A DNA stretch of 64,000 nucleotides from Psychrobacter sp. Choline-02u-9 (GTDB lineage: Bacteria > Pseudomonadota > Gammaproteobacteria > Pseudomonadales > Moraxellaceae): assembly GCF_002836505.1 (NCBI RefSeq), contig NZ_PJBF01000059.1, positions 124,001 through 188,000 on the forward strand. Reading direction: 5' to 3'. Each line of letters begins with the position of its first letter. The stretch's first letter is position 1. This document shows positions 8,931 to 60,877 of this stretch, in pieces. The position numbers and the translations under genes were made by a program. The notes under the pieces were generated by a model. That model did not search any database, had not been told where the DNA came from, and saw nothing but the letters and a program-made list of their open reading frames with translations.

Positions 8931-10292
8931 ATGGTTTTACTTACTAATAGCGAACTGGTACCGTCTATGTACACTGATTCAATGAACGACTCTACAAATT
9001 CTAAGTCAGAAAAGGCTCGGGCTAGCCATACGCCTGTAGCAAAATCACCACTGTCACAAAATAGAATCAATCCAGTTCAGCCGAATAAAACTGTAGAGCA
9101 GAGCAGTACCTCACAACAAAATACTGAGAAACATATCGCGACAGATCCTTATTTTAGTGTGCAAAATCTCATCGTAGGCTATGACGATACTATCGTCGTC
9201 AATGGTCTATCGTTGATGTTGGAGCAAGGCGAGATTGGTTGCTTCTTAGGTTATAGCGGCTGCGGGAAGACCACAGCGCTACGAGCTATCGCGGGACTGG
9301 AGCAAAGTCGCGGTGGCACTATCTACCTAAACAATCAACGCTTAACTGAAAAAAATGCTCGCCAATCATTCGCAGTGGCGCCAGCCAAGCGTGGCATGGG
9401 CATGGTATTTCAAGATTATGCTCTTTTTGGTCATTTAAGCGTGGCAAAGAACATCGCCTTTGGTCTCAATAAATGGTCATCTGCTGACAAAAAAGCTCGA
9501 GTGGCTGAGATGCTAAGCTTAGTTGAATTAACCGAGCATGCGGATAAACGTCCAAATGAGCTTTCTGGTGGTCAGCAGCAGCGTGTGGCTCTAGCAAGAG
9601 CGCTAGCACCCAAACCAAAACTACTATTACTTGATGAGCCCTTTTCTAATCTAGATGTGGTGCTGCGTGAATCACTAGCAATGAATGTCCGTGATATTCT
9701 CAAACGTACCAATACCACAGCGATTTTGGTCACTCATGATCAAAATGAAGCGTTCGCGCTAGCGGATAAAGTAGGGGTAATGGATAAAGGACGATTGGTA
9801 CAATGGGCGCGACCAAGCGAGCTGTATCATGAGCCTGTCAGCCCTTTTGTCGCTGAGTTTGTGGGCGAAGGCGCGATGATAGACGGTATTATCAAAGAAG
9901 GTCATGTTGAGACGGCACTGGGGAATATCTATCGCCGCATGGAAGTCTATGATGAATCAGGACAACCACAGTACTGCGAATATGATTATCCAAATGGTAC
10001 GCTAATCAAAGTACTCGTGCGCCCTGATGATATTATTCATGATGATGACAGTACACAGACAGCTTTAGTTATTGGACGTGTGTTTCGCGGTGCCAACTAT
10101 TTGTACCGACTGCAGTTAGATGACGGACAGACTGTCTTATCCTTAGTTGCGAGCCATCATAATCATGCAATCGGCTCGCATATTGGCATTCTGCCTTTGC
10201 TAGAGCATGTCGTAGTCTTCGATGAAAAAGACATCAATGCCACTACTTGGTCAGAATATGATAGATCATCGAGAATGGATGAAGAGGTTTAG
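8931..10292 (+). CDS. fbpC: Ferric iron ABC transporter, ATP-binding protein
   Basis: ATPase that powers Fe3+ import through FbpB. Seen: Walker A GYSGCGKTT near residue 107, Q-loop region VFQDYALFGHL, signature LSGGQQQRVALARAL, Walker B LLLLDEPFSNLD, H-loop VTHDQNEAF and a C-terminal TOBE-like domain with VRPDDIIHDDD. FbpC proteins are usually near 350 residues; this one has 453, with a Ser/Asn/Lys-rich N-terminal extension of about 70 residues before the ABC domain starts at YFSVQNLIVGYDD. Several in-frame ATGs (8931, 8967, 8982) make the start uncertain; none has a strong ribosome-binding site. Some FbpC relatives are annotated as CysA/PotA-like; the neighbours settle it here. Confidence 0.88.
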   Translation: MVLLTNSELVPSMYTDSMNDSTNSKSEKARASHTPVAKSPLSQNRINPVQPNKTVEQSSTSQQNTEKHIATDPYFSVQNLIVGYDDTIVVNGLSLMLEQGEIGCFLGYSGCGKTTALRAIAGLEQSRGGTIYLNNQRLTEKNARQSFAVAPAKRGMGMVFQDYALFGHLSVAKNIAFGLNKWSSADKKARVAEMLSLVELTEHADKRPNELSGGQQQRVALARALAPKPKLLLLDEPFSNLDVVLRESLAMNVRDILKRTNTTAILVTHDQNEAFALADKVGVMDKGRLVQWARPSELYHEPVSPFVAEFVGEGAMIDGIIKEGHVETALGNIYRRMEVYDESGQPQYCEYDYPNGTLIKVLVRPDDIIHDDDSTQTALVIGRVFRGANYLYRLQLDDGQTVLSLVASHHNHAIGSHIGILPLLEHVVVFDEKDINATTWSEYDRSSRMDEEV

Positions 10293-12272: not shown

Positions 12273-12456
12273 AGCTTCTTTTATTAAACATTAAAACTAT
12301 CGCTATTTTCCTATTGTTTTGCACGTGTAGCAGTGTTTTTTTATGGTATCTATTTTGGTCATGACTGCCCATTTATGTGGCAGTATTTTTATATGATCTA
12401 TGGGTGCCATAAGCGATGTGTCAACGTTAGAAAAAAATGTGAGTGAAGGAGTGTAT

Positions 12457-15261
12457 ATGAGCGAATCGGTCAGTCCTATTGGCATCGTAGATGAACTAAA
12501 GCAGTCGTATTTGGATTATGCGATGAGCGTGATCGTCTCGCGTGCGCTGCCTGATGTGCGTGATGGGTTCAAACCTGTACACCGCCGCGTGATGTATGCC
12601 ATGCACGTGCTATCAAACGATTATAATAAACCGTATAAAAAATCAGCACGTGTGGTCGGTGATGTTATCGGTAAGTACCATCCACACGGCGATAGTGCTG
12701 TCTATGATGCCATCGTACGGATGGCGCAGGATTTCAGCTTGCGCTACCCAATGGTTGATGGTCAAGGTAACTTTGGCTCGATCGATGATGATCCTCCGGC
12801 AGCGATGCGTTATACCGAAGTACGTATGACCAAACTGACCCACCAGATGCTCGCTGATTTGGACAAAGACACGGTCGATTGGGAAGACAACTACGATGGC
12901 TCTGAGCGCATGCCAAGTGTGATGCCAGCGCGTATTCCTAACCTATTGGTCAATGGTGCGACGGGTATTGCCGTTGGTATGGCGACCAATATGGCACCCC
13001 ATAACCTGACCGAAGTGATTAATGCCTGTCTGGCCTATGCTGAAAACCCACAAGTTTCAGCCGAAGAGCTGATGTCGCATATCTCAGGTCCTGATTTTCC
13101 TACGGGCGGTATTATCTATGGTCGCGCGGGCATTTTAGATGCTTATCGTACGGGTAAAGGCCGCTTGCATATTCGTGGTCGTTATCATATCGAGCCGATG
13201 AGCAATTCTGGAGTCAACCGTGATCGTGAGCGCATCGTATTTACCGAAGTACCTTATCAGGCTAACAAAGCCAAGCTGATCGAGCGTATCGCAGAGCTTG
13301 TTCGTGATAAAAAAATCGAAGGCATTAGCGAAATTCGTGATGAGTCAGATAAAGACGGTATGCGTATCGCTATTGATTTGCGCCGCGGTGAGACCGCTGA
13401 AGTTATCGTTAATAACCTATTTCTACAAACGCCGCTAGAGTCTAGCTTTAGTATCAACATGGTGGCGCTCGATAATGGTCAGCCAAAACTATTGACCTTG
13501 CGTCAGCTTATCGCTGCATTTGTCCGTCATCGTCAAGAAGTGGTGACCCGCCGTACGATTTATGAATTGAACAAAGCCCGCGTTCGTGGTCATTTGCTAG
13601 AAGGTCTAACGGTTGCTCTAGCCAATATCGACGAAATTATCGCGACGATTAAAGCTTCTGCAAACCGTGGCCTAGCACGTGAAAGCTTATTAAATAACAC
13701 GTGGGGTTCAGGTAGCGTCGTTGCGATGCTCACGGCTGCTGGTAGTCAATCAGTACGTCCTGAGTTTATCGATGGCGAAGATCCTAAAGCGCCGTTTGGT
13801 CTAATCGAAGGCGAAGAGCGTTATCGTTTGTCACTTGAGCAGGTCAATGCGATTTTAGATATGCAATTGCATCGTCTGACTGGCCTTGAGCAAGATAAAT
13901 TGACCGAAGAATACCAAGACCTATTGCGTGAAATTGCGCATTTAGAGTCTATCCTTGGCGATTTTGATAAGCTTATGGCTATTATCTCTAATGAGATGAT
14001 CGAGATTCGCGATAACTTTGGTGATGAGCGCCGTACGGACATTATTGACTCACGTACTGACTTTAGCCGTGAAGACCTTATTCCAGAGCAAACGGTCGTG
14101 ATGACAGTGTCACGTACTGGTTATGCTAAGACTCAGCCAATTGACGATTATGTCGCGCAAAAACGTGGCGGTAAAGGCAAGTCTGCCACGGCGATGAAAG
14201 AAGATGATGTCATTGATCATTTAGTTGTGACATCTACTCACTCTACCGTATTGTGTTTTACGGATAGTGGGCGTGTCTTTAGCTTACGTGGTTTTGAAGT
14301 GCCGATTGCCAGTCGCGGTGCTCGTGGTCGTCCACTCGTTAACCTGATTGGCTTAAATGGTGATGAAACCGTTACGACGATATTACCGATTCCGAAAATC
14401 GTAGGGGACACATCGGTCACAGGTGAGATGTCAGAGGCAGATATCTTAATAGATAGTGATGATGACTCAGTAGAAGACAGCAACCAAGCAGAAGCGCCTT
14501 TCGTTTTCTTTGCAACGGCCAATGGTACCGTGAAGCGTGTTGAGCTTAAGCAGTTTGCCAATATTCGCTCGAACGGTTTGATTGCGGTTGGACTAGAAGA
14601 CGGTGATAAATTGGTCAGCGCTCGTATCACTAACGGTAGCCAAGAAGTGATGTTGTTTGCTTCAAATGGTAAAGCGATTCGTTTTGATGAGAATGATGCG
14701 CGTGCGATGGGCCGTACGGCAAAAGGCGTCCGCGGTATGCGTCTGGCTACTGATGAGTTTATCAAATCATTAGTCGTTATCGAAGATGATGTACGTGAAA
14801 TTCTGATTGCTTGTGAAAATGGCTTTGGTAAACGTACCTTTATCGATGAGTTCAATACACAAAATCGTGGCGGTGGCGGTGTGATCGCTATCAAGACCAG
14901 CGAGCGTAATGGCGCACTAGTACGAGCGACCAAGGTTGACTCTACCGATGATATTATCCTAATCTCTGACAAAGGTACGTTGGTTCGTACACCAGTTGAG
15001 CATGTTGCTAGCTCTGGTCGTAATACGCAAGGCGTAACATTGATTCGTCTGTCAAAAGATGAAAAACTGGTTGCCATGGCGCGTGTTGAGCACGAAGAGA
15101 GCGATGACGAGCTTATCGATGCCATGAGAGAAGATGGTACGTTTGAGGTAGAAGGTCAGGAGCAGATAGATATTGATGCGACAACTGACAATACCGCAGC
15201 TACCGACGTCGATGATGCGATTGATATTGCAAACGACCATAAACCAAGTGACAATCTATAA
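12457..15261 (+). CDS. gyrA: DNA gyrase subunit A
   Basis: Type IIA topoisomerase subunit that, with GyrB, introduces negative supercoils. Seen: [20 protein letters not shown] near the N-terminus, [20 protein letters not shown] in the quinolone-resistance region with wild-type Ser and Asp, the catalytic Tyr in [13 protein letters not shown], and the GyrA box QKRGGKG that marks a gyrase rather than ParC. The C-terminal beta-pinwheel contains an acidic insert (about residues 665-690, [10 protein letters not shown]) and the protein ends in an Asp/Ala/Thr-rich tail. It has 934 residues against 875 in E. coli. The ATG at 12457 is chosen over the upstream one at 12400 because AAGGA lies 6 bases before it. 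Confidence 0.97.
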
Positions 15262-15344
15262 TAGACTCACTATGCATAAGACGATGACGAGTAATAGTCT
15301 TGGTAATTAGCTTTTGAGTCTAGTCTCTTAGTATTTTTCTAGAA

Positions 15345-15383
15345 AAAAGCCTCTGACGTTATCGTCGGAGGCTTTTGTTTTTT
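15345..15383 (+). terminator. Rho-independent terminator after gyrA
   Basis: A 14-bp stem (AAAAGCCTCTGACG pairing with CGTCGGAGGCTTTT, one G-T pair) with a TTAT loop, followed by GTTTTTT. It lies 84 bp after the gyrA stop and 55 bp before the first DMT gene. A near-copy recurs at 16665. Confidence 0.9.
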
Positions 15384-15437
15384 CATTCTCATTTTTTCAA
15401 TACTGTAAATAAGGTTCTATTTTTTAAGGCTGTTGTT

Positions 15438-16508
15438 ATGCTTACGACCAATCAAACTTTTCAGGGAACGGTTGCTTCGGTATCATCGAGCTTTTTATTC
15501 TCGATGATGTTTTTGTTTGGACTGTTTATGCTGCCCTTAACAGGGACGCAGGTAGCGTCATGGCGTGTGCTCATGATGTTACTCAGTTTGGTGATATTGG
15601 TCAGTTTGACTAAGCAGTGGCAACGTGTTTTTGATTATATAAAGACGCTAAAGACAATCAAGGAGTGGTTAATATTTATACTGCCTGCGCCAATCCTAGG
15701 TGGGCAGATTTGGTTGTTTATGTGGGCTCCGGTCAATGGGTTTGGTCTCGATGTTACGTTGGGCTATTTTTTATTGCCGCTAGTGATGATTGTGCTTGGT
15801 CGATTCTTTTACCATGAGTATATGAGTATCTTGCAATGGGCTGCCGCGATATTTGCAGCACTCGGTATCGGCTACGATATTGTTCAGTATGGTTCAGTAT
15901 CTTGGGTGACACTGTTTGTATGCTTGGGTTATCCACCGTATTATCTGCTACGCCGCACCCTTTCTGTACCGCCCATTACAGGGTTGTTGTTTGATTTGAC
16001 GCTGTTAACACCAGTCGTGCTCATCGTGCTCTATATGACGGGCGGTTTTGATGTTGCGGCGCAAGACATGAAGTTTTGGTATCTGTTGCCGCTGCTTGGT
16101 GCTTTTAGTGCGCTTGCGATGTCGCTGACGATGATTGCCAGTAGCAAGTTGCCAGTATCACTATTTGGAGCATTGAGTTACATCGAGCCGATGCTGTTAT
16201 TCGTATTGTCTATTACTATTTTGAGTCAAAGCCTTGAAGAAGGTGGTTCGCTCTTTATGTACGGCATGATTACGTTTGCGCTACTGGTCATGATGGCCGA
16301 TAGCATCAAGGGCTACCTCGTTCGTCAGCGTAATGACCGCTTGCATGGCTATAGAGAGCTTCAGATTGGCGGCTTTCCACCGCGTCGTCACTTTATCAAT
16401 CAGCGTATCGATGGCGTGCTAAAAGCCCATCGTTTTCGTAAGATTCGTCGTTACCAAAAGAAGATGGATAAGATACAGCAAAAAATCGAACAACTTGATG
16501 CAAAATAA
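15438..16508 (+). CDS. DMT-superfamily transporter (RarD/EamA-like), copy 1
   Basis: Integral membrane protein of 356 residues with about ten hydrophobic helices in two EamA-like halves, resembling the RarD group of the drug/metabolite transporters. Motifs include GTQVASWRVL, MWAPVNGFGLDVTLGYFLLP, LGYPPYYLLRR and SLFGALSYIEPM. The C-terminal cytoplasmic tail is very basic (PPRRHFINQRIDGVLKAHRF). The substrate is unknown. I start it at the ATG at 15438 because the sequence MLTTNQT and the preceding GGCTGTTGT are shared with the second copy; a longer frame opens upstream at a TTG inside the terminator. It forms a tandem pair with the next gene, same length and about two-thirds similar by eye. 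Confidence 0.82.
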   Translation: MLTTNQTFQGTVASVSSSFLFSMMFLFGLFMLPLTGTQVASWRVLMMLLSLVILVSLTKQWQRVFDYIKTLKTIKEWLIFILPAPILGGQIWLFMWAPVNGFGLDVTLGYFLLPLVMIVLGRFFYHEYMSILQWAAAIFAALGIGYDIVQYGSVSWVTLFVCLGYPPYYLLRRTLSVPPITGLLFDLTLLTPVVLIVLYMTGGFDVAAQDMKFWYLLPLLGAFSALAMSLTMIASSKLPVSLFGALSYIEPMLLFVLSITILSQSLEEGGSLFMYGMITFALLVMMADSIKGYLVRQRNDRLHGYRELQIGGFPPRRHFINQRIDGVLKAHRFRKIRRYQKKMDKIQQKIEQLDAK

Positions 16509-16664
16509 GCACTTACCTGCATTAAATTTACTCAATTTAAAAGTTTAGACACTAGATGAACAGTGGCATTGCTTATTCATTCTGACTTTGACATAATGCC
16601 GACCATGATGTAAGCCTAATACATCAAAAGCGTTCAACTTAGATTGCGCGACGACCTTATATGC

Positions 16665-16705
16665 AAAAGCCTCAGACGTTCTCGTCTGAGGCTTTTGTTT
16701 TTTTT
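16665..16705 (+). terminator. Rho-independent terminator after DMT copy 1
   Basis: A perfect 14-bp stem (AAAAGCCTCAGACG pairing with CGTCTGAGGCTTTT), TTCT loop, then a long T-run. It is nearly the same as the terminator at 15345 and lies at a matching position before the second transporter gene, as if duplicated together with it. Confidence 0.9.
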
Positions 16706-16748
16706 AAAAATTGCCATGGATGTGCCCCAATCTTTAAAGGCTGTTGTG

Positions 16749-17819
16749 ATGCTGACTACTAACCAAACCTCGCAGGGTACAATCACTGCTGTCGCTGCAA
16801 ATTTTTTATACTCATTGCTGTTCTTATTTGGTCTACTGCTGCAACCATTATCAGGTACGCAAGTCGCTTCGTGGCGCGTGCTGACAATGTTTTTTAGTCT
16901 AGTACTGCTGGTCAGCGTACTAAAGCAATGGCAGCACATTTTTGATTATTTAAAAACACTAAAGAACGCAAAAGAGTGGTTTTTATTTATATTACCTACA
17001 CCGATTTTGGGTGCGCAAATCTGGATATTTATGTGGGCGCCAGTTAATGGTTTGGGACTTGAGGTAACGTTGGGTTACTTCCTATATCCGATGATTATGA
17101 TCGTTGTTGGCAGGTTCTTTTACAACGAAGACATGAGCTTACTTCAGTGGGCTGCCATTGTATGTGCAGGTCTCGGTATCGCTTACGATATTTTTGAGTA
17201 TGGGGCTATTTCTTGGGCGACTTTATTTGTTTGCTTGGGTTATCCTCCTTATTATCTACTACGTCGCAAGTTGGCAGTGCCGCCTATTACTGGTCTTATC
17301 TCAGACCTTGTATTGTTATTGCCAGTTGTATTGGTTGCGCTGTATATGAATGGCGGTTTTGAAGTAGCAATCACCAACCATAAGCTTTGGTATCTGCTGC
17401 CGTTATTAGGCATTATCAGCACCGCTGCAATGTCACTAACGATGGTGGCCAGTCAGAAGTTGCCTGTCTCACTTTTTGGCACTCTGTGCTACCTTGAACC
17501 AATATTCTTGTTTATCTTCTCAATCGCAATTTTAGATCGTAACTTACATGATGGTGGCTCGATGCTGATGTACAGCATGATTTTTGTCGCATTGCTGATT
17601 ATGATTGCCGATAGCGCATTAGGTTATACGGCGCGTAAACGTGAAGACCGCTTACATGGCTACAATGAGCCACAAGTAGGCAGTTTTCCACCACGTCGTC
17701 GTCTGAAAAATCGCCGTATCAAAGGCGTGCTAATCGCGCATCGATTCCGCCAGATCAAAAAATATCAGCAAAAGATAGATAAAATGACGCGTAAGATTGA
17801 AGCATTACATTTAGACTGA
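16749..17819 (+). CDS. DMT-superfamily transporter (RarD/EamA-like), copy 2
   Basis: Paralogue of the preceding gene: also 356 residues, about ten membrane helices and a basic tail (PPRRRLKNRRIKGVLIAHRF). It shares AVVMLTTNQT at the start, MWAPVNGLGLEVTLGYFLYP, LGYPPYYLLRR and the ending pattern of alternating Lys/Gln. Differences are spread along the whole length, so the duplication is not recent. The ATG at 16749 is set by comparison with copy 1; the frame opens as far up as 16644, across the terminator. No terminator is obvious downstream. Substrate unknown. Confidence 0.82.
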   Translation: MLTTNQTSQGTITAVAANFLYSLLFLFGLLLQPLSGTQVASWRVLTMFFSLVLLVSVLKQWQHIFDYLKTLKNAKEWFLFILPTPILGAQIWIFMWAPVNGLGLEVTLGYFLYPMIMIVVGRFFYNEDMSLLQWAAIVCAGLGIAYDIFEYGAISWATLFVCLGYPPYYLLRRKLAVPPITGLISDLVLLLPVVLVALYMNGGFEVAITNHKLWYLLPLLGIISTAAMSLTMVASQKLPVSLFGTLCYLEPIFLFIFSIAILDRNLHDGGSMLMYSMIFVALLIMIADSALGYTARKREDRLHGYNEPQVGSFPPRRRLKNRRIKGVLIAHRFRQIKKYQQKIDKMTRKIEALHLD

Positions 17820-18012
17820 TGTTGAAGAGTACACCGTCTGAGATAGTATCGATTCGGTAGGCATAGTTTTCCAGCATGTCTGCCAACTCACAGTATTAAA
17901 GAAGTACAAATTACGCTATTATCGAGAGCAGTGGTGCCACAATCGATTAAACGTATGGTGCTATATCTGAGATATTATGCTGATTTACTACAATATATAA
18001 CTAGGACGGTTT

Positions 18013-18681
18013 ATGTTACATCTTCATCATTTAGCAAACTCGCGCTCGTTTCGTATTATCTGGCTGTTGGAAGAGCTCGGCGCCGATTATAAACTGACTT
18101 GCTATGAGCGCAACAAGGCATACCGTGCTCCTGATAGCCTAAAGCAAGTGCATCCGATTGGTAATGCACCGATACTAGAAGCAGACGATCGTGTGCTGAT
18201 TGAGTCAGGGTTTATCATTGAATATTTGATTAAGCACTATGATAAAGAAAAGCAGTTCAAACCTGACGATAATAACGAAGCAGCGTGGGAAGCCTACACG
18301 TTTTGGCTACACTTTGCAGAGGCTTCATTGATGCCACTGTTGGTCATGCGTTTGGTATTCACCAAAGTAGTGTCTCAGTCGCCGATGCTAATCAAACCTA
18401 TCAGCAAAAAAATCCAAGGTCAGATTGAAAAAAACATGATCAGTAGCGGTTTGGAGAAGATGCTAGATATGATGGAGCGTCATCTACATGAAAATCACTG
18501 GTTTGCAGGTAGTGAATTTAGCGCCGCTGATATTCAAATGCATCTTGCAGTCTTGGGTGCCAATGCTGGTGCAGGTTTAGATCAGAGTAAATATACCAAT
18601 CTTTTGAACTGGCTCAAACGCTGCGAAGAACGAGATGCCTTTAAGCGAGCAGAAAAAAAGGGTGGCCGTCTGAATTTCTAG
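18013..18681 (+). CDS. Glutathione S-transferase family protein
   Basis: Cytosolic GST fold of 222 residues. The N-terminal thioredoxin-like half has HHLANSRSFRIIWLLEELG, where Ser/Arg sit at the glutathione-activating site of bacterial GSTs, and HPIGNAPILE with the cis-Pro loop. IESGFIIEYLIKHY supplies the gamma-glutamyl contact (ES). The C-terminal helical half includes HWFAGSEFSAADIQMHLAV, with the conserved Asp of the hydrophobic staple. The substrate is unknown. AGGACGG lies just before the ATG, and a strong terminator follows. Confidence 0.88.
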   Translation: MLHLHHLANSRSFRIIWLLEELGADYKLTCYERNKAYRAPDSLKQVHPIGNAPILEADDRVLIESGFIIEYLIKHYDKEKQFKPDDNNEAAWEAYTFWLHFAEASLMPLLVMRLVFTKVVSQSPMLIKPISKKIQGQIEKNMISSGLEKMLDMMERHLHENHWFAGSEFSAADIQMHLAVLGANAGAGLDQSKYTNLLNWLKRCEERDAFKRAEKKGGRLNF

Positions 18682-40254: not shown

Positions 40255-41034
40255 ATGAGTCAGATTCATCCTACAGCACTCATCTCACCGTCCGCGCAGA
40301 TTGACGAGACTGCTATCATCGGGCCCTATTGTATCGTTGGTGATGAAGTATCAATTGGTGCGCATACGGTTTTGCATAGACATGTCGTTGTGACTAAACT
40401 GACTCGTATTGGCCAACACAATGAGTTTTATCAATTTGCGAGTATTGGTGAAGATCCTCAAGACTTGAAATATGCAGGTGAGCGCACTTGGCTTGAAATC
40501 GGCGATCACAATACGATTCGTGAAGCCTGTAGCTTACACCGTGGTACAGCGCAAGACGGCGAGCTGACTAAAATCGGCAGTCATAATCTACTGATGGTAA
40601 ACACCCATGTCGCACATGATTGTGTTATTGGCGATCATAACGTACTGGCTAACAATGTCGGTGTAGCGGGGCATGTGACTATTGGCGACCATACCATCAT
40701 CGGTGGTAACTCAGGTATTCATCAGTTTTGTACAGTAGATGACTATAGCTTGATTGGCGGAGCAAGCCTCATTCTAAAAGATGTGGCTGCATTTACGATG
40801 GTATCTGGCAATCCAGCAAAGGCTCATGGACTCAATATCGAAGGCATGCGCCGTAAAGGTTGGTCAAAAGAAACCATTAATGTATTGCGTCAAGCGTACC
40901 GTACGATTTTCAGATCAGGTTTGACCACTGTACAAGCGTTGGAAGTCTTACATAATGAGCTATTAGCTAAAGAGCCAAAAATTCAGCTACTTATTGATTC
41001 ATTACAAAATAGCAGCCGCGGTGTTGTACGCTAA
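40255..41034 (+). CDS. lpxA: UDP-N-acetylglucosamine acyltransferase
   Basis: First enzyme of lipid A synthesis. It is a left-handed beta-helix trimer with repeated hexapeptides (IHPTALISPSAQIDETAIIG, FCTVDDYSLIGGASLI). The catalytic His is in VNTHVAHDCVIGDHN, and GNPAKAHGLNIEGMRRKGW leads into the C-terminal helical part. It has 259 residues, the normal length. A terminator follows, and lpxB is not downstream, unlike in E. coli; it must lie elsewhere in the genome. Confidence 0.97.
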   Translation: MSQIHPTALISPSAQIDETAIIGPYCIVGDEVSIGAHTVLHRHVVVTKLTRIGQHNEFYQFASIGEDPQDLKYAGERTWLEIGDHNTIREACSLHRGTAQDGELTKIGSHNLLMVNTHVAHDCVIGDHNVLANNVGVAGHVTIGDHTIIGGNSGIHQFCTVDDYSLIGGASLILKDVAAFTMVSGNPAKAHGLNIEGMRRKGWSKETINVLRQAYRTIFRSGLTTVQALEVLHNELLAKEPKIQLLIDSLQNSSRGVVR

Positions 41035-58399: not shown

Positions 58400-60877
58400 T
58401 CATTCTTGTAGCTGCTTATGCAAAATTCTTCGCAACGTCAAAATGGTCTGCGGATTGGTCTGAATACTATGACCGCCATTGATAATTGTTTCAGACGCAG
58501 CACCATCGAGATGGGCACTATTATAAGGAACGATACCATCTGACAAACGCTCGGTCAGTGCTTGACTGATATCATCATTGACTGTCACAGCGGCAACAAG
58601 CGGCTCGGGTGGTAGCTGTGATGTCTCAGTATTGTCGCTGACATCAACGCTCGCCGTTTCATTTCCAGCATTGTCTTCTACCGCTTGAGACAAATCAATC
58701 TTGGCACCGTTTGGTTGTGTTTGTGCCAGTCCTTTAGTGATGTCGGCATCGTTATTGGCAATGATTGAATGGTAAGTAATACGCTCATTCATAGTGATGT
58801 CTTTGGTTAACTCTATAAAAGAAGACTTATCACTTAACTGGCTGGCACCGTTCTGCAAATATAAGGCGCCCAGTGGGTTTTGCGCCAAATCGCCTTGTGT
58901 GGCAATGGTCGCTAAGTTATCTGTGAATGTCTTGACCAGACCTACGGGTAAGTAAACGATGCGGCGTAGCGCACGGGTGAACCAACGATCTGCATAATCG
59001 GTACCACGGAAAGGTGCAGATAGAAAAACAGCGGTGTCTACTTGTGGCAATGCCTGTAGCTCAAATCGTTCCTTTAATTCATTTTCGCCAAAAGACGTTT
59101 TGAGCGCGTTACGGATTTGCTGTTTCTCATTACTAGAGAGGAGGTCTTTGTCATTAAGCTTATCTAAATCATCGACTAAATTTTCATCAGATAGCATCAT
59201 ACGAGCGATGATGGCACCCATACTATGACTGATAATCACACTATTTCGACTGGCACGATTTTGTCCATTGGGATCAGTCTGCCGGTAGGTGCTGTTGATT
59301 AACTGCTGAATCTGATAACGATTTTCTAAAATAGGCAGATTGGTTGGATAGAATATTTGCCAAACTTGGTAATTGTCACGCAGCTTGTCATCATTAAGAA
59401 TATCGTTGGTCAGATTGACCCATGTGGCCGGACTAGAGGCTAGCCCGTGCAACATAATCAACACGCGTTTATCAGGATCATAAGGCTCGAGCATGAAGAG
59501 TTTGGGCAGCTGAGCATCTGGCTGGCGCGTAATCAAGTTTAAATAACCCACGCCATCTAACTGGTTCTCTGATAGCCATAAGCCATATCCCGCCGAAAAG
59601 TTGGCTGCCAATGGGTAGTCATCATTTAGGATATTGACGGATTCGGTTTGGTACGGATTGTATAAATGGATATCAAGCTTACGACTGCTCAGTGCGTCTA
59701 ATACGCTATCGCCATCTGGCTTAATCAGACCAGTCAATAGCAGATGTCCAGTGGGATAAATACGAGAGCTTGGCTCGCTATCATCATTGTTTTTATTTTC
59801 ATTTGTCAGTCGACCAGATAAGGAGGCGACCAGTAACTGACGGATTGTGGTGGTATAGCGATCATCCAACGATGCTACCAAACTGATGCCCAAACCAGGG
59901 CGCTTACTCACGGAATTGAGACCGGAGAGTCGCAGCTCATAAGTGGATGATAAGTCTGCCAAAGCGGAAGTTTGTTTATGGGCATTTTGCAGATAGTTGT
60001 TTTCGTTGGGCAAATAAATATCGAGGTTATAGTCATCTACGGTAACTTTCATGACTTTGACTTGGTCTGTTGCTTTGCCCTTTAGCGGTGGTCGATTGGC
60101 GATTGCTGCTTCATCCGTGTTATCACGCTTGGTAGAGGTTATCGGCAAATACTCTACTGTCGTATCACCCATCAATTTATTGGCGTTTTCAGTTGATTGA
60201 TAAATTTGAGTAATAACGTCATTGCTAGCAGCGTTATAAATATCTTGGGTTTGGATATCATTGTCATTTGGAATACGGTTTTGCGCACGATGGCTATTGC
60301 TATTTTGCTCTGCACCTTCAAAGTCATGGGTCAAACTGTCATAAAATAGATAGGTGTAGCTGTATTTGACAGCATCAAACAACCTTGCTTGATAATCGGT
60401 TAAACACAGGTCAGTCTCTTCTTGCTGTGTTTTTGAATCCTCATTACTTAAAGGCGCATTGGCGTAATACGGATCAAGTGGCGGGCGTGCCAGTGAATTA
60501 CGACAGTTTTTTGAATCAGATAGTTGACGCGCTTTTGCATAGTGCAGTTCTGCAAAAATAGCCAAAGCGGGGCGATAGTGTCTGTTAAGCATACTATCAG
60601 AGAGCTGAGTCAAGCATAGGTCAAATTGCTGCATACAGGCTTGCTCATTCAGTCCTGCTGATAACAAAGCAGATGCTGTATCGCTACTTAGCGCATTGTC
60701 AGTGACAATATTGCCGCGCTGCGCTGAGATGGTCTTGGCCGAGGCTTGTTTATCTACCGTCACCGTACTACACGCTGGTAGCAATACTGCTGCTGCCAAA
60801 AGCATAAGTGACGCAATGGGCAGGGTTTTTTTATTAGTATGCATTACTGTCTGTTTGCTAAAGCCAGCGAAAGTCAT
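58400..60877 (-). CDS. Large alpha/beta-hydrolase (lipase/esterase-like) lipoprotein
   Basis: Product of 825 residues. The signal segment ends in the lipobox LPAC (LASLMLLAAAV-type core), so it is probably lipid-anchored. The first 480 residues are family-specific and contain Asp/Asn/Ser-rich stretches. The hydrolase domain begins VLIMLHGLASSPATWVNLTN (oxyanion HG). The nucleophile elbow is ISHSMGAIIARMML (Ser about 551), and the likely catalytic His is in GGHSIQTNPQTI (about 803). DGIVPYNSAHLDGA may supply the Asp. The gene starts at ATG 60877 or 60844; the second gives a more typical signal peptide, but the first has the better ribosome-binding site. The natural substrate is unknown. Confidence 0.8.
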   Translation of the reverse strand: MTFAGFSKQTVMHTNKKTLPIASLMLLAAAVLLPACSTVTVDKQASAKTISAQRGNIVTDNALSSDTASALLSAGLNEQACMQQFDLCLTQLSDSMLNRHYRPALAIFAELHYAKARQLSDSKNCRNSLARPPLDPYYANAPLSNEDSKTQQEETDLCLTDYQARLFDAVKYSYTYLFYDSLTHDFEGAEQNSNSHRAQNRIPNDNDIQTQDIYNAASNDVITQIYQSTENANKLMGDTTVEYLPITSTKRDNTDEAAIANRPPLKGKATDQVKVMKVTVDDYNLDIYLPNENNYLQNAHKQTSALADLSSTYELRLSGLNSVSKRPGLGISLVASLDDRYTTTIRQLLVASLSGRLTNENKNNDDSEPSSRIYPTGHLLLTGLIKPDGDSVLDALSSRKLDIHLYNPYQTESVNILNDDYPLAANFSAGYGLWLSENQLDGVGYLNLITRQPDAQLPKLFMLEPYDPDKRVLIMLHGLASSPATWVNLTNDILNDDKLRDNYQVWQIFYPTNLPILENRYQIQQLINSTYRQTDPNGQNRASRNSVIISHSMGAIIARMMLSDENLVDDLDKLNDKDLLSSNEKQQIRNALKTSFGENELKERFELQALPQVDTAVFLSAPFRGTDYADRWFTRALRRIVYLPVGLVKTFTDNLATIATQGDLAQNPLGALYLQNGASQLSDKSSFIELTKDITMNERITYHSIIANNDADITKGLAQTQPNGAKIDLSQAVEDNAGNETASVDVSDNTETSQLPPEPLVAAVTVNDDISQALTERLSDGIVPYNSAHLDGAASETIINGGHSIQTNPQTILTLRRILHKQLQE

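Follow-up and report, generated by a model that had tools for sequence, protein, structure and literature searches.

How two neighboring transporter genes came to be preceded by almost the same terminator-like hairpin, and what each hairpin does in its present place, is the question raised by a 64,000-nucleotide stretch of the genome of Psychrobacter sp. Choline-02u-9 (contig NZ_PJBF01000059.1, positions 124,001 to 188,000; hereafter, the window). Here a gene that we take to be gyrA (so named in a preliminary description of this DNA) is followed by a hairpin (H1), an EamA/RarD-type transporter gene (rarD1), a second hairpin (H2), a second transporter gene (rarD2), and a glutathione S-transferase (GST)-like gene, gst. 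The explanation favored here, with a probability of roughly 0.7, is that a hairpin and its rarD gene were duplicated together in tandem long ago, that H1 would still serve as the terminator of gyrA, and that H2 would now lie in the leader of rarD2, behind a promoter-like block termed P.

Both hairpins have the form of intrinsic terminators, a stable GC-rich stem-loop followed by a U-tract, and they rank as the top two terminator-like sites between positions 10000 and 24000. Positions 15345-15383 and 16665-16703 are 92% identical across 39 nucleotides (nt), and the predicted folding energies (-23.1 kcal/mol for H1 and -27.8 kcal/mol for H2) were equaled by none of 200 shuffled sequences. H2 alone folds with a z score of -10.1, the whole rarD2 leader with one of -4.9. 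Across the alignment, 298 of 304 cells (98.0%) in the 16 pairs of the H2 stem are paired; covariation is limited, as both sides have changed in just 2 pairs and 7 others never vary.

The transporter genes are adjacent, lie on the same strand, and are of equal length, and their products are identical at 238 of 353 positions (67%) in a gap-free alignment, compared with 40% for the next closest relative in the same genome. Both proteins begin with MLTTNQT, and GGCTGTTGT lies upstream of both ATG codons, separated from them by a single variable base. Adjacency, common orientation, mutual nearest relationship within the genome, and homology extending beyond the coding part are the marks of a tandem duplication, and each of them supports the one proposed in the preliminary description. 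Outside the genes, the window shows similarity only in the hairpin and adjoining T-tract and in the ∼16 bases next to the ATG; none was seen by eye between the sequences upstream of H1 and H2. The whole rarD1 and rarD2 leaders resemble each other in all 10 compact genomes tested (0 to 3 of 500 shuffles as good), chiefly in the T-tract and the 16 bases nearest the ATG, with similarity in the middle of the leader in G040 (1 of 500 shuffles) and, weakly, in G012 (12 of 500).

The distribution of the locus was surveyed in 100 Psychrobacter genomes (G-numbers label genomes and L-numbers label loci). By our own count from the table and the matches listed, 59 carry two copies (some of them broken), 25 carry one, and 16 carry none. 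The window and 60 fetched loci were compared, 35 with two copies and 26 with one; the latter include G024, which is counted as a two-copy genome (its second copy lies on a separate contig, that of copy 1 breaking off shortly past the gene). The comparison covers every one of the 25 single-copy genomes and, among the 59 with two copies, 35 in addition to G024. The upstream neighbor is gyrA at 60 of 61 loci and the downstream neighbor a GST gene at 60 of 61, contig ends explaining the remainder. (G030 [L062] has the order gyrA-gst-rarD-gst, a second GST gene separating gyrA from rarD.) Where rarD is absent, gst directly follows gyrA in 15 of 16 Psychrobacter genomes (in G049, gyrA runs off the contig), as it does in G105 and G130, which belong to another genus. 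Any hairpin detected at such sites is a different one, except in G096, which has lost rarD and retains a remnant of H1 and the ribosome-binding stretch. Outside the genus, the matches listed from 149 genomes of the family are only 28 to 40% identical to the copies, and so are those listed from a further order-wide sample of 244 genomes.

The deepest single-copy lineages are G059, G077, and G083, followed by G027; the hairpin between gyrA and rarD is close to those in the window in G077 and G083 and diverged in G059 and G027. Because related hairpins already stand at this site in these lineages, the hairpin after gyrA is assigned to the duplicated unit, as the preliminary description had supposed, and the order gyrA-[H1-rarD1]-[H2-rarD2]-gst is, from the comparison of loci, old in Psychrobacter. 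A quick-search gene tree, from which the copy-2 pieces of G021, G056, and G069 (all shorter than 900 nt) and the disrupted one of G036 were left out, unites the 31 retained copy-2 sequences of 35 with the single gene of G017 in one branch (Shimodaira-Hasegawa-like approximate likelihood ratio test [SH-aLRT] support, 100), and places 36 copy-1 sequences within another branch (support, 96) together with 16 single genes. Single- and two-copy species are intermixed in a tree of gyrA and gst fragments, on the well-supported branches of which the two-copy state needs at least 3 changes; this mixture is consistent with several losses.

The two hairpins are held in place from opposite sides. Among 34 two-copy genomes, the distance from the gyrA stop codon to H1 is 46 to 50 nt in 26, 63 nt in 5, 83 nt in 2, and 221 nt in 1, while H1 lies anywhere from 53 to 293 nt ahead of the rarD1 ATG. 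H2 lies 50 to 57 nt ahead of the rarD2 ATG in 33 of the 34 (147 nt in G070) and 147 to 462 nt past the rarD1 stop codon. The ungapped mismatch is 0.21 to 0.34 in the final 60 nt ahead of rarD2 and 0.51 to 0.67 farther upstream, a region in which H2 itself is partly out of register. In G003, G024, G042, and G057, a hairpin stands only ∼30 nt ahead of the rarD start codon, which leaves hardly any room for a promoter behind it; in these genomes, transcription of rarD would have to pass the hairpin or to begin at a promoter that overlaps it. (The rarD2 frame happens to be open upstream through the hairpin, at 16644-16748, giving a 391-codon open reading frame [ORF] from a TTG codon and one of 399 codons in many relatives; this is probably due to chance.)

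Block P lies upstream of H2. Its pattern, TTGCTTAT-N10-TTTGACATAAT with up to 3 mismatches, is present in all 35 rarD1-rarD2 spacers examined and in the gyrA-rarD spacers of G002, G080, and G094, and is absent from the other 56 gyrA-rarD spacers, from 60 rarD-gst spacers, and from 29 spacers of 28 genomes without rarD. It occurs at one place in its own genome. Eighteen of its 29 columns are invariant and 4 more are kept in 33 or 34 of the 35 spacers, and the mismatch is 0.03 to 0.19 inside P compared with 0.37 to 0.67 in the neighboring sequence. Set against the sigma-70 consensus, P reads as a promoter with a poor -35 hexamer, a 17-nt spacing, and an extended -10 element, for which a transcription start at about position 16604 is predicted. 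Given the conservation of P upstream of H2 and the fixed distance from H2 to the ATG, H2 probably lies in the leader of rarD2 itself, by analogy with greA/GraL of Escherichia coli (see below). The features are listed in Table 1.

Table 1. Features of the gyrA-rarD-gst region, in window positions
Feature	Positions	Strand	Remarks
gyrA	12400..15261	+	953-codon ORF; upstream neighbor of H1
H1, intrinsic-terminator-like hairpin and T-tract	15345..15383	+	83 nt 3' of the gyrA stop codon in this genome
rarD1 leader	15384..15437	+	ribosome-binding site AAGG and GGCTGTTGTT ahead of ATG
rarD1, EamA/RarD-type transporter	15438..16508	+	356 codons, ATG start; TIGR00688, 168.7 bits
P, promoter-like block	16569..16597	+	TTGCTT-N17-CATAAT; TGA ahead of second hexamer
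H2, intrinsic-terminator-like hairpin	16663..16705	+	16 pairs and T8; between rarD1 and rarD2
rarD2 leader between H2 and ATG, conserved	16706..16748	+	AAAATTGCCA.GGA.GTGC...AAAGGCTGTTGT; alignment of 19 genomes
rarD2, EamA/RarD-type transporter	16749..17819	+	356 codons, ATG start; TIGR00688, 171.9 bits
gst, glutathione S-transferase-like gene	18013..18681	+	GST_N, 1.3e-14; follows gyrA where rarD is absent

The preliminary description held that the duplicated terminator insulates the two copies. This stands insofar as H2 would end the rarD1 RNA; however, with P upstream of H2 in all 35 spacers examined, H2 would act on the transcript of rarD2 as well. Plain insulation, in which H1 ends the gyrA RNA, H2 ends the rarD1 RNA, rarD2 has its promoter between H2 and the ATG, and P is no promoter or serves otherwise, appears unlikely. 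The conserved 50-nt stretch after H2 does open with TTGCCA, a -35-like hexamer, and Psychrobacter makes wide use of intrinsic terminators, which one source reports for 69% of tail-to-tail regions in Psychrobacter cryohalolentis and 65% in Psychrobacter arcticum (PMC1852404). However, our reading of the 19-genome alignment found no conserved -10 element at a fitting distance from TTGCCA, transcription directed by this hexamer would start within the ribosome-binding site or at the start codon itself, and P, which apart from the hairpin is the best-conserved noncoding part of the spacer, would be left unexplained.

The stretch from P to H2 could also encode a stand-alone, trans-acting small RNA that merely happens to lie upstream of rarD2, as a conserved promoter-like block followed ∼65 nt farther on by a strong terminator-like hairpin might suggest. 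This is quite improbable, as the body of such an RNA is poorly conserved and variable in length, no Rfam family scores above its gathering threshold, and the fixed spacing between H2 and rarD2 points to a role in cis.

The specificity of the hairpin bears on a further alternative. In the host genome (3,387,694 bases in 71 contigs), H1 and H2 are the only matches to a 30-nt pattern of the hairpin when as many as 3 mismatches are allowed, and a generalized pattern is present in 70 of the 100 Psychrobacter genomes, with at most 2 matches per strand in each. Among the matches listed, every hairpin adjoins gyrA or rarD and none stands in an unrelated context; hairpins in such contexts would, according to the preliminary description, have spoken against a joint duplication. 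A fuzzy 32-nt match recovers the hairpin in 56 of 59 gyrA-rarD spacers (variants are visible by eye in the three missed, those of G010, G027, and G059), in all 35 rarD1-rarD2 spacers, and in none of 60 rarD-gst spacers; G030 also has it and was handled separately, since an extra gene occupies its spacer. An origin of H1 and H2 as separate copies of some dispersed repeat, whether a terminator or of the DNA-uptake type, rather than by duplication is very improbable: four other hairpins in the same genome do carry the outer AAAAGCCTC...GAGGCTTTT, and uptake sequences are often part of terminators in Neisseria and Pasteurellaceae (PMC1852404), but these four lack the inner stem GACG...CGTC, and the pattern with this inner stem is found at this locus alone, both in its own genome and among the matches listed in the 100 genomes.

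The near identity of the hairpins had been ascribed in the preliminary description to selection or to conversion. Over 32 positions in 34 genomes, the mean mismatch is 1.78 within H1 and 3.26 within H2, and that between H1 and H2 is 4.88 in the same genome versus 4.74 across genomes; 9,976 of 10,000 permutations were as close as or closer than the observed within-genome pairing. The nearest hairpin is one of the same position in all 34 genomes, for H1 as well as for H2. Fourfold-degenerate sites differ by 54% between species for each gene and by 62% between copies and are therefore saturated. Selection on the hairpins is real but appears ordinary: in the same 21 genomes (G084 dropped), H1 differs by 6.2% per site, H2 by 9.5%, and a control terminator, the hairpin after the gene at 40255-41034 (presumably lpxA), by 11.9%, a similar degree of conservation. 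Special conservation of H1 and H2 need not be invoked; theirs resembles the usual effect of purifying selection. The hairpin that follows the 825-codon ORF at 58403-60877 proved unusable as a second control, being found in its own genome only; a scan for it returned other, AT-rich hairpins in two more genomes. Gene conversion, which could account for hairpins that are 92% identical beside genes with saturated fourfold sites, is rejected on this genome set by the lack of any excess within-genome similarity and by the invariable clustering of hairpins by position.

Several observations weigh against the favored combination of an old duplication and a terminator in the rarD2 leader. As to the date, approximately unbiased (AU) tests (on 77 of 105 sequences, with a simpler model) did not reject a grouping of G002, G080, G094, and G011 with copy 2 (p-AU, 0.772), which scored 22 log units above the unconstrained quick tree, nor a grouping of copy 1 of the two-copy genomes without nine of the single genes (10.7 log units worse; p-AU, 0.394), so that more than one date for the duplication is compatible with these tests. 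In the window itself, the middle parts of the rarD1 and rarD2 leaders show no similarity (336 of 500 shuffles as good). P matches the -35 consensus at only 3 of 6 positions and was not listed by a promoter scan; the RNA from P to H2 is poorly conserved across the genus (the mismatch of 0.37 to 0.67 given above), and this stretch is longer in G019, G015, and G070. A consensus fold of 19 genomes yielded only H2 and a few weak pairs, with no antiterminator, and an Rfam 15 search of 15200-18050 gave 10 matches up to an E value of 10, none of them at the gathering score. With no conserved structure besides H2 and no Rfam family at gathering, a switchable attenuator is not supported.

Two candidates from the leader search were set aside. 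The weak Rfam matches to leaders and small RNAs, all far below gathering, were treated as chance. A helix in which sequence upstream of H2 pairs with the ribosome-binding site of rarD2, masking the Shine-Dalgarno sequence, was predicted in the window and is 85 to 90% paired in the 19-genome alignment; it was dropped, being no better than shuffles in 16 genomes (mean z score, -0.43, versus -0.31 for a control stretch upstream of H1 in 15 genomes), with individual genomes at P values of 0.01 (G084) and 0.04 (G015). Inspection by eye revealed no leader peptide for rarD2.

The favored explanation can be spelled out as follows. Early in Psychrobacter, the ancestral order was gyrA-hairpin-rarD-gst, and the segment from the hairpin through rarD was duplicated in tandem, as the comparison of loci shows. 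H1 has stayed at its distance from the gyrA stop codon and would serve as the intrinsic terminator of gyrA; rarD1 may be fed by leakage through H1 and perhaps, where there is room, by a promoter behind it. The position of H2 became fixed relative to the rarD2 start codon, and P arose or was retained upstream. RNA from P would run for ∼60 nt, meet H2, and mostly stop, yielding a leader RNA of ∼100 nt if P is a promoter, and rarD2 would be expressed by the read-through RNA alone, with H2 also ending the rarD1 RNA. Both hairpins evolve independently, apparently under ordinary purifying selection. The further step, that a gene-end terminator duplicated with its gene has been recruited as a leader element, H2 setting rarD2 expression from behind a strongly constrained promoter by premature termination and giving rise to a short RNA while H1 stays the gyrA terminator, is offered tentatively, at somewhat less than even odds.

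As short repeats, H1 and H2 could also permit the loss of rarD1 by recombination, as one genome suggests. The single gene of G017 is of the copy-2 type (29 copy-2 states and no copy-1 states in 31 diagnostic columns), and its sole hairpin has a left flank and left half of the H1 type (GTTCTAGAAAAAGCCTCTGACGTTA) and a right flank of the H2 type (GTTTTTTTCTAAAATTGCCAA). Such a mixed hairpin is expected from a deletion by recombination between hairpins, and G017 seems to have lost rarD1 in this way. Copy 2 is broken at no fewer than 4 of the 35 two-copy loci examined: in G021 (L057), by ∼1 kb of inserted DNA that carries, on the opposite strand, a fragment of a DDE_3-type transposase; in G036, by several stop codons; and in G056 and G069, by frame breaks. 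A ∼170-nt element that resembles a small mobile element and has inverted ends (GGGCGTGTC.../...GACACGCCC) lies in the gyrA-rarD1 spacers of L047, L070, L076, L059, and L095 (genomes G007, G044, G056, G025, and G085), 3' of H1 in four of them and 5' of H1 in G085. In the spacers after gyrA of L045 and L110 (G005 and G096) is a repeat, perhaps palindromic and dispersed, whose arms resemble GCAGCCTCTGTCTGC and AGCAAGCAAGAAA.

Homologs of the 953-codon gyrA ORF were found in all 29 further genomes searched (56 to 93% identical). Both transporters exceed the cutoff (130.15 bits) of the NCBIfam RarD model TIGR00688, and neither reaches that of NF011959 (PRK15430; cutoff of 540; 97.3 bits for rarD1 and 112 bits for rarD2). 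The Pfam EamA domain (PF00892; cutoff of 28.2 bits) is passed by rarD2 (36.6 bits) and missed by 0.3 bits by rarD1 (27.9 bits). Both proteins have similar basic C-terminal tails of ∼55 residues (window positions 16338-16505 and 17649-17816) with the pattern RLHGY...FPPRR...HRFR.I..YQ.K.DK...KIE, beyond the part matched by TIGR00688. No description of a gyrA-rarD1-rarD2 locus was found among the literature matches listed, as judged by titles and the openings of abstracts.

The locus clearly illustrates one route by which a regulatory RNA element could originate, the duplication of an ordinary gene-end terminator with the adjacent gene, and its sister hairpins invite comparison over dozens of species, alongside single-copy genomes and genomes lacking the gene. 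If the leader reading is true, it supplies a concrete origin for a terminator in a 5' untranslated region (5'-UTR); if it is false, the locus still provides a well-behaved case of terminators being conserved in the absence of conversion. Compared with other RarD/EamA transporters, both window proteins satisfy the same family model but differ in the extra basic tail, kept in both copies, and they are just 40% identical to the next RarD of their own genome. The hairpins share a GC-rich stem, a 4-nt loop, a T-tract, and a position 3' of a gene with the Psychrobacter intrinsic terminators described in PMC1852404, whereas here one copy traveled with a tandem duplication and now stands at a fixed distance before a gene. 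The closest parallel is E. coli greA/GraL, with the same succession of promoter, short leader, 5'-UTR intrinsic terminator, and gene; about one-third of the RNA there is reported to continue past the terminator, and the remainder to form a small RNA (PMC6829880). Termination there was measured and depends on GreA, whereas the rarD2 leader is known by its anatomy only; moreover, rarD2 codes for a transporter, its hairpin arose as a copy of the one behind gyrA, and the RNA that precedes this hairpin shows little conservation.

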